DNA of 35,068 bases from Patescibacteria group bacterium. GTDB taxonomy: Bacteria > Patescibacteriota > Microgenomatia > UBA1400 > PJMF01. Shown piece by piece: positions 7,993 to 11,647 of this stretch (positions within the stretch are counted from its first letter, which is position 1; every line of letters starts with the position of its first letter). Below the pieces are notes generated by a model. The model made no database searches. It was not told the origin of the DNA and saw only the letters and a list, made by a program, of their open reading frames with translations. The DNA is taken from positions 4,723 through 39,790 of the forward strand of contig JAHDXH010000008.1 in the NCBI GenBank assembly GCA_023382875.1, read 5' to 3'. The position numbers were made by a program, and so were the translations under genes.

Positions 7993-8022
7993 TTGATACA
8001 ACATGGAGCAAATACTTATGAT
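7993..8022 (+). promoter_or_regulatory. Promoter of T-box/aspS unit: TTGATA-N18-TATGAT
   Basis: -35 at 7993-7998, -10 at 8017-8022, just upstream of the leader RNA. Confidence 0.45.
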
Positions 8023-8028
8023 AAAATA

Positions 8029-8215
8029 TTCTTAATAACGTCATAGACTGTTGACAACAGTCGATCTAATATAGAACGTTGCCAAGGGTGATAACTTGGT
8101 TGGGTAGGCCCATGATAGCCGGAATTAAGTAAATAGAAGGTGGCACCACCGACTTAAGCAATTAAGAAGGCCCTTTTGTGACTAGATCTTAGATGTAGTC
8201 ATGAGAGGGTTTTTT
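8029..8215 (+). promoter_or_regulatory. T-box riboswitch leader of aspS
   Basis: T-box core AGAAGGTGGCACCACCG (8135-8151) with UGGC (8141-8144) matching tRNA GCCA end; antiterminator GAAGG/CCTTT plus CTTAA-gcaa-TTAAG; competing terminator CCCTTTTGTGACTA/TAGTCATGAGAGGG + T6 (8171-8215); Stem I hairpin GACTG-TTGACAA-CAGTC (8046-8062). Confidence 0.88.
8171..8215 (+). terminator. Regulated intrinsic terminator of the T-box leader
   Basis: 14-bp stem (with G-U pairs) 8171-8184/8196-8209 followed by T6. Confidence 0.85.
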
Positions 8216-8234
8216 ATTGCAAAAAAGGAGAAAT

Positions 8235-9647
8235 ATGCCAAGAACACTCGTCTTGGAGACAGTTAATCAAGTTGGAAAAGAAGTAGTTTTACAAGGTTGG
8301 GTTGATACTAAGCGCGACCATGGTAAAGTCACTTTTATTGACCTTCGTGACCGAACCGGCAAAATTCAATGTGTCGGCTACTTAATGATGAGCGAATTAT
8401 CAACAGAGTCAGTGGTTGAGATTCATGGCTTAGTCAAAGCTCGTCCAGAAAAATTAGTCAACAAAGCTTTGCCAACTGGTGGAGTGGAGATTGAAGTTAA
8501 AAGCTACGAAGTTTTAAACAAAGCTAAGGAATTGCCATTAACTTTGGAAGGTGATGGTTTGGATATTCGCGAAGACGTGCGTTTGAAATATCGCTATTTA
8601 GACTTACGCCGAGAAAGATTGCAACACGCCATCAGACTTCGTTCTAAGTTTATTCATGCTTTAAGCAATGCTTTGCATGAACAAGATTTCGTGGAAATTG
8701 AAACACCAATTTTGACCGAATCAACTAAAGAAGGTGCGCGTGACTTTGTTGTGCCATCTCGCTTAAATCCTGGTAAGTTTTATGCTTTACCTCAAAGTCC
8801 TCAACAATACAAACAACTTTTGATGACTGCTGGATTTGAAAAATACTTCCAGGTGGCTCGTTGTATTCGTGACGAAGACTTGCGTTCAGACAGAGGTTTT
8901 GAATTTACCCAGCTAGATATTGAAATGAGTTTTGTGGACCGCGAAACCGTCATGTCGACTGTTGAGGGCGTGGTTAAAAAAGCCGTTAAAGCTGTGGGTG
9001 GCAAGCTGCAAAAAGAGGAATTCCCAGTGTTCACTTACGAAGAAGCTATGGCAAAGTATGGAGCTGACAAATTCGACCTTCGTACCGAAGAAGAGAAAAA
9101 AGAAGGTGTTCTGGCTTTTGCTTGGGTAATCAAGTTTCCTTTCTTCAAAAAAGTTGACGCCGCTGATGTAGCTGAGGTTCGTGATGGTAAATCTGGTTGG
9201 ACCTTTACCCACAACCCATTCTCATCTCCAGAGCCTGAATTCATTGAAGATCACTTGGCTGGCAAAAATGTCGAGAAGATTGTGACAGCTCAATATGACT
9301 TGGTTTGCAACGGTTATGAAGCTGGTGGTGGCTCTATTAGAGCTCATCGCGCTGATTTACTTTTGGCTACCTATAAAATCATGGGTTACTCAGAGGAAGA
9401 GATTCAGGCCAGTGTTGGCCACATGCTCGAAGCTTTTGAAGTGGGAACGCCACCGCATGGTGGAATTGCACTTGGACTTGATCGCTTGGTAATGCTTTTG
9501 ACTGGTCAAGAATCGCTCAAAGAGGCAATTGCTTTCCCAATGACTTCATCTGGAAAAACATCAATCATGAATGGACCAAGCTCAATCAGTGAAGAACAAC
9601 TTAAAGAACTTCATATCAAGCTAGATGTGAAAAAGAGCAAAGACTAG
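8235..9647 (+). CDS. aspS: Aspartyl-tRNA synthetase, bacterial-type lineage with reduced/absent GAD insertion
   Basis: MPRTLVLETVNQ.. with SD AAAGGAG; FYALPQSPQQYKQLLM, RCIRDEDLRSDRGFEFTQLDIEMSF, GIALGLDRLVMLLTG; ATG at 8235 preferred over the TTG at 8217 in the ORF track. Confidence 0.95.
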   Translation: MPRTLVLETVNQVGKEVVLQGWVDTKRDHGKVTFIDLRDRTGKIQCVGYLMMSELSTESVVEIHGLVKARPEKLVNKALPTGGVEIEVKSYEVLNKAKELPLTLEGDGLDIREDVRLKYRYLDLRRERLQHAIRLRSKFIHALSNALHEQDFVEIETPILTESTKEGARDFVVPSRLNPGKFYALPQSPQQYKQLLMTAGFEKYFQVARCIRDEDLRSDRGFEFTQLDIEMSFVDRETVMSTVEGVVKKAVKAVGGKLQKEEFPVFTYEEAMAKYGADKFDLRTEEEKKEGVLAFAWVIKFPFFKKVDAADVAEVRDGKSGWTFTHNPFSSPEPEFIEDHLAGKNVEKIVTAQYDLVCNGYEAGGGSIRAHRADLLLATYKIMGYSEEEIQASVGHMLEAFEVGTPPHGGIALGLDRLVMLLTGQESLKEAIAFPMTSSGKTSIMNGPSSISEEQLKELHIKLDVKKSKD

Positions 9648-11225: not shown

Positions 11226-11232
11226 AATTAAG

Positions 11233-11647
11233 TGGAGATGACGAGTAACGAACTCGTGTCTGTAAGGAACGTGATCATCATTTTCTACAGATATAGTTTT
11301 GGTCTTAAGTGAGTTGAAATAGGGAGGCCAAAACGAGCCTAAATCAACCTTCATTTCTAAAGTCTTATTCTTTAGCCGAAATGCGAACTAAAGAGGTCAC
11401 ATCGACTGTTTTTTCACCCAAAAGCCATCATCGATGCGAATGGACTTCTGGATGCCAGTTAAGCAGCTAAAGCTGAGTAACTTGGGGCTGAGAAAGCACT
11501 AGCAACGGTGTTAGAAACATCGAGGATTGTGTTCTTAGCTTTGCTGACAATAGAGTCTGCAGTTATTTTTTTGCTTTGTTTTACGCCTTAAAGCAAAAGG
11601 CGATCTGCCAATGATAAAGAGCTCTCACATCAATTCAATACATCCCC
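11233..11647 (-). ncRNA. ssrA: tmRNA (transfer-messenger RNA)
   Basis: Minus strand acceptor GGGGATG (11647..11641)/CATCTCC (11240..11234) + A; T-arm ACGAG-TTCGTTA-CTCGT; PK1 CGCCTT..AAGGCG with GCTTT..AAAGC; further pseudoknots (CCAT/ATGG with CATCG/CGATG; CTTTAG/CTAAAG with CATTTC/GAAATG); tag frame ending ..YSALAA-stop. Confidence 0.95.
11459..11560 (-). other. tmRNA tag reading frame, deduced peptide ADSIVSKAKNTILDVSNTVASAFSAPSYSALAA*
   Basis: Resume GCA after GCAAAAAAATAACT, aligned with E. coli GCAAAAAATAGTC-GCA; runs to TAA with the canonical ALAA C-terminus. Confidence 0.8.

Follow-up and report, generated by a model that had tools for sequence, protein, structure and literature searches.

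The window, a 35,068-nucleotide stretch of DNA from a Patescibacteria group bacterium, carries aspS on its forward strand at positions 8235–9647. The gene opens with an ATG at 8235, preceded by an AGGAG ribosome site (8226–8230), and its 470-residue product is an aspartate--tRNA ligase that matches the AspRS profile at 591.6 bits against a cut-off of 443, in agreement with the gene identity given in the initial annotation of this DNA. The guess made there of a CPR genome is also supported; the relatives that carry a name belong to the Patescibacteria/CPR, namely Candidatus Beckwithbacteria, Candidatus Pacebacteria and an uncultured Patescibacteria group bacterium. Upstream of aspS and on the same strand, as are all features described below unless noted, positions 8029–8215 hold what we read from the sequence as a compact T-box leader. 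A sigma-70-like promoter, TTGATA-18-TATGAT (7993–8022), lies before it; this is a consensus match only (10/12), and the consensus scan found 3 promoter-like sites in the scanned region where 1.5 were expected. The end of this site at 8022 sets a predicted transcription start at ~8029. Provided that the promoter-like site is used, no room remains for a long Stem I, the element that the initial annotation had reported missing, and the predicted start is separated from the antiterminator bulge by only about 110 nt. Elsewhere in the window, on the reverse strand, an Rfam match of 96 bits marks a tmRNA (11230–11647) that was not found by ARAGORN; its 3′ end reads CACUU, and the CCA appears not to be encoded.

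Anatomy of the aspS leader

The 5′ part of the leader is organized around an outer Stem I helix, AACGU/ACGUU (8037–8041/8076–8080), which encloses two small hairpins. This helix is compensated in related leaders, where it reads AACGC/GCGUU (L009), AGCGU/ACGCU (L010) or AAAGC/GCUUU (L033 and L041). The first enclosed hairpin is the short Stem I hairpin GACUG-UUGACAA-CAGUC (8046–8062), with 5 bp and a 7-nt apical loop that presents the putative specifier GAC, an Asp codon (8053–8055), followed by the purine A8056; the second is UCUA-AUA-UAGA (8065–8075). On paper, the window hairpin alone could extend its stem to 7 bp and leave GAC as a triloop, which most relatives cannot do. The K-turn motif of many relatives (UGA/RA) is degenerate in the window copy, where it reads CAUA/GA.

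Two further short helices separate Stem I from the switch. Stem II, CCAAG-GGUGAUAA-CUUGG (8082–8099), has all five of its pairs compensated in 10 leaders. Stem IIA, UGGG-UAGG-CCCA, is followed by an F-box-like UGAUAGC (together 8101–8119) and is supported by covariation; the Stem IIA element of other leaders aligns to the CGg..CCGUUA columns of the Rfam T-box model RF00230.

The 3′ part holds two predicted structures that compete for one strand. The antiterminator (8135–8177; −7.4 kcal/mol as drawn) pairs AGAAGG (8135–8140) with CCUUUU (8172–8177) and carries the 7-nt bulge UGGCACC (8141–8147) and an upper hairpin, CUUAA-GCAA-UUAAG (8153–8166). The intrinsic terminator (8171–8215) is formed by the arms CCCUUUUGUGACUA (8171–8184) and UAGUCAUGAGAGGG (8196–8209), which make 14 pairs and run into U6 (8210–8215); the folding energy of 8166–8218 is −27.3 kcal/mol. 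The 5′ arm of the terminator overlaps the 3′ arm of the antiterminator, and the shared strand, 8171–8177, makes the two mutually exclusive. This terminator is absent from the list produced by a simple consensus scan. The leader as a whole folds more stably than shuffled sequences (z −4.6; 0/200 shuffles as good). The GAC hairpin with its 7-nt loop and trailing purine, the GAAGG-UGGCACC stretch (8136–8147), the competing 14-bp terminator and its U6 had all been picked out in the initial annotation, and each holds up on inspection.

The genome encodes a tRNA-Asp that fits both ends of this leader. Its anticodon, GUC, is complementary to the loop GAC, and its 3′ end, ...GGGGTCGCCA, carries G73, so that its terminal GCCA is complementary to the UGGC of the bulge (8141–8144), a match that had been proposed from the bulge.

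The putative specifier codon in aspS leaders of relatives

We identified aspS in 51 of 52 related genomes; a leader is present in 11 of the 27 aspS upstream regions inspected, and the remaining regions lack one. Most of the T-box-bearing aspS leaders keep GAC and the following purine in the apical loop while the stem around them changes by compensation, as in AUCUU-CUGACAA-AAGAU (L009), GCCAG-CUGACAA-CUGGC (L041), GCCUU-CUGACAC-AAGGU (L039) and GUCUG-CUGACAC-CAGAU (L096). The comparison of related leaders that the initial annotation had suggested thus favours it, and the finding that would have told against it, a conserved specifier elsewhere, did not appear: the T-box-bearing aspS leaders of relatives contain no other conserved Asp codon.

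This comparison also bears on a canonical arrangement, in which the specifier would sit in an internal bulge and the hairpin would be structural only. GAU at 8063–8065, just 3′ of the hairpin, is an Asp codon that follows a distal helix, the placement found in T-boxes with a long Stem I, and it recurs in L009 and L042. It is absent, however, from L041 (AAGC), L010 (AAGU), L059 (AAUC), L096 (AAGU) and L039 (AAUC), all of which keep the loop GAC, and leaders for other amino acids hold their own codon in the loop. We therefore reject GAU at 8063 as the specifier, which is not conserved while the loop GAC is kept, and regard the canonical arrangement as very improbable.

In one genus, the aspS leaders of G016 and G027 (L043/L046, identical to L024/L032) carry AAC, an Asn codon, in place of the loop GAC. 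The aspS leader L114 of G353 likewise has AAC in its loop. No AsnRS over the curated cut-off was found among the order-level relatives tested, nor in G016, G027 or G353, which fits a non-discriminating AspRS. In relatives without AsnRS, AspRS probably charges tRNA-Asn as well, and by this inference sensing of tRNA-Asn by the AAC leaders would be sensible.

The aspS leaders of G014, G017 and G028 (L014, L015 and L020) are of a smaller form without a recognisable Stem II, in which the Stem I hairpin is followed by a possible H-type pseudoknot, AAGUAC and the bulge. The loops of the possible pseudoknot are compensated among the three (GGCA/UGCC, GCGA/UCGC and CGCG/CGCG). When this form was sought in 42 family genomes, clear matches were obtained only in these three leaders.

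Predicted T-box leaders across the genome and the phylum

The initial annotation had suggested a search with RF00230, which does not recover the window leader, even at E = 10. Across the host genome (1.0 Mb, 29 contigs) the same model yields seven sub-threshold matches of 33–48 bits, against a gathering threshold of 93, and these precede argG, argH, proS, serS, ileS, glyS and one unidentified gene. Read by eye, the loop codons are CGC for argG and argH, CCU for proS, AGC for serS, AUC for ileS and GGC for glyS. With aspS included, the genome has eight such predicted leaders, each readable with a matching codon in a short apical loop. The leader before the unidentified gene (L004; C1:72151–72348) has CGC (Arg) in its loop; the 396-aa protein downstream has no match in Pfam or NCBIfam, and its function is perhaps arginine-related.

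The genome contains tRNAs for the leader codons, with anticodons GUC, GCG, GGG, GCU, GAU and GCC. At the other end of the tRNA, N73 can form a Watson-Crick pair with the bulge base in the Asp, Arg, Pro and Gly leaders and a wobble pair in the serS leader, where we take tRNA-Ser to have its usual G73. In the ileS leader (L006; C2:73243–73383), UGGC faces A73 of tRNA-Ile(GAU), so the fourth base of the bulge meets a C-A mismatch.

We then surveyed the phylum with a core model that runs from Stem II to the bulge. Stem I was left out because a full-length MAFFT alignment misaligned it, and its exclusion makes the codon test independent of Stem I. The core model found matches in 35 of the 52 relatives; among 380 genomes sampled from the phylum, 47 gave a match. 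We compiled 106 leaders, mostly core-model matches together with leaders found earlier by other routes, and assigned the downstream genes by hmmscan of representatives, sequence clustering and signature motifs. Apical loops of Stem I are typically 6–9 nt across the set, and 7 nt in the window and most of its aspS relatives.

To read specifiers automatically, the best short hairpin with K-turn-like flanks was chosen in each leader and a triplet close to the loop's 3′ end was taken. Of 71 leaders read in this way, 42 gave a codon cognate to the gene downstream, compared with 14.4 ± 3.0 when the genes were shuffled (maximum 26 in 20,000); a looser codon test gave 54/91 against 29.4 expected (maximum 41 in 5,000). 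The rule was fixed after the leaders had been viewed; the shuffle of gene identities uses the identical rule. Of the 29/71 non-cognate readings, many come from leaders whose cognate hairpin was passed over by the rule, and not all are resolved. Ile, Asp, Ser and Val are the commonest specificities among the cognate readings; Arg, Pro and Tyr are represented too, and inspection shows leaders for Gly, Trp and Ala. Among individual leaders, L066 (G038) carries UCC (Ser) and lies before the gene of a protein in the histidine phosphatase family that is possibly a phosphoserine phosphatase, and the genes downstream of L089 (G407; GUC) and L090 (G186; AUC) have an unclear amino acid role.

Stem II and Stem IIA are 95.5% paired across the set and contain 23 doubly changed cells where 7.4 were expected, a value reached by 0/500 shuffles, and this covariation far exceeds both shuffled and slid controls. 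The bulge base in turn tracks the discriminator base of the tRNA across the phylum: leaders for amino acids with A73-type tRNAs have 42 U and 4 C, and those for Asp and Ser (G73-type) have 11 U and 31 C (Fisher 2e-10). To assign an N73 class to each amino acid, we used the tRNAs seen in the host genome and, for the others, general knowledge. The leaders are related by descent, so the shuffle and Fisher values treat them as more independent than they are.

Of the 106 leaders, 92 end in a terminator-like hairpin with a U-run, which weighs against the possibility that the aspS leader acts mainly on translation and that its U-tract hairpin is incidental. The precedent for such control is real, since actinobacterial short Stem I T-boxes are mostly translational. 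In the window, however, the terminator, U6 included, stops at 8215, ahead of the AGGAG (8226–8230), and its 5′ arm overlaps the antiterminator. With terminators this widespread, we reject mainly translational control, which keeps no better standing than an internal specifier. Weakest is leader-peptide attenuation or an unregulated terminator with a chance GAC hairpin, which we discount almost entirely: the leader does contain the short frame TTG ACA ACA GTC GAT CTA ATA TAG, but a single Asp codon and no evident ribosome site led us to reject a leader peptide, and a chance hairpin would not explain the agreement between codon and gene, the fit to N73 or the covariation.

In 287 sampled phylum genomes RF00230 gave a match over the cut-off in 9 and some match in 95, and those of the over-cut-off matches that were aligned to the model display a full long Stem I. 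Two kinds of predicted T-box, with short and with long Stem I, thus coexist in the phylum, and the short-Stem I leaders are near-invisible to Rfam. Longer, higher-scoring T-boxes in other Patescibacteria (L179–L188) include some that lie before genes of unclear function.

Proposed mechanism and relation to known T-box classes

We hold it very likely that aspS is preceded by a compact T-box riboswitch that senses tRNA-Asp and acts on transcription, with the following mechanism. The GAC in the apical loop of the short Stem I would pair with the anticodon GUC of tRNA-Asp, and Stem II and Stem IIA, substituting for the absent long Stem I, would brace this codon–anticodon contact. With uncharged tRNA-Asp, the 3′ GCCA would pair with the bulge UGGC and stabilise the antiterminator, allowing readthrough into aspS; with charged tRNA-Asp, the more stable terminator would form and transcription would stop. 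Sequence and comparison show how the leader is built, that its cognate codon is conserved and its helices are compensated, that it fits a tRNA of the same genome and that a terminator is present. Binding of the tRNA, dependence on charging and the direction of control are inferred by analogy with studied T-boxes, with no experiment behind them.

Whether the Patescibacteria hold a separate T-box class we judge to be evenly balanced. Such a class would be defined by an apical-loop specifier, termination and about ten specificities, and would include the ~90-nt aspS form (L014, L015 and L020) of two genera, which lacks both a long Stem I and a recognisable Stem II, leaving only codon pairing, a small pseudoknot and the 3′ end to hold the tRNA. 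The class may have arisen by independent reduction, or it may be an old form. For a large phylum most of whose members are uncultured, the leaders would amount to a regulatory code based on tRNA sensing; where a gene is unannotated, the loop codon tells which amino acid is sensed.

Four T-box classes have been described (PMC10482949). Class III, typified by ileS of Nocardia farcinica and Mycobacterium tuberculosis, is mostly translational and has a 5–6-nt apical loop (PMC10482949, PMC7583486, PMC10651847); the statement in the initial annotation that terminal-loop specifiers occur in translational actinobacterial ileS leaders agrees with this description (PMC10482949). The Patescibacteria leaders resemble Class III in their short Stem I, which has no distal motif (IDTM) for binding the tRNA elbow, in the apical-loop specifier followed by a purine, in the K-turn-like bases that many relatives have in Stem I, in the presence of Stem II, with an S-turn AGUA/GAA in L006 and L010, and in the Stem IIA element and UGGN bulge. 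Of the Class III Stem IIA/B pseudoknot, the main Patescibacteria form has Stem IIA; a pseudoknot partner was not identified. Unlike Class III, these leaders have a terminator rather than ribosome-site control, a loop of typically 6–9 rather than 5–6 nt, about ten amino acids rather than Ile, and a host in the Patescibacteria rather than the actinobacteria; the Stem II of the window is also very short. The initial annotation had called a transcription-terminating Asp version unusual: it does differ from the described Class III, but it does not stand alone, being one of eight leaders in its genome and part of a phylum-wide set. A literature search returned no paper on T-boxes in CPR/Patescibacteria, which is weak evidence of absence given poor coverage of subscription papers. 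What is new relative to the described Class III is the transcriptional output, the breadth of specificity, the host and the near-invisibility to Rfam, although prior description is not excluded.

With Class I (the B. subtilis tyrS type, RF00230) the leaders share the antiterminator/terminator switch, the UGGN bulge, Stem II, Stem IIA and control of aminoacyl-tRNA synthetase and amino acid genes; unlike Class I, the window leader has no long Stem I, distal IDTM or internal specifier loop. Class II (B. subtilis glyQS) is likewise transcriptional, with a compact stretch between Stem I and the antiterminator, but glyQS keeps a long Stem I and drops Stem II, whereas the Patescibacteria leader shortens Stem I instead. 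Transcriptional T-boxes generally need a long Stem I; a review holds its distal, tRNA-elbow-binding part to be dispensable in translational T-boxes and essential in transcriptional ones, and ties this need to fast tRNA capture during transcription (PMC7583486). A transcriptional, multi-specificity set without an elbow-binding Stem I challenges that view and supplies many small RNAs for testing the elbow-binding requirement.
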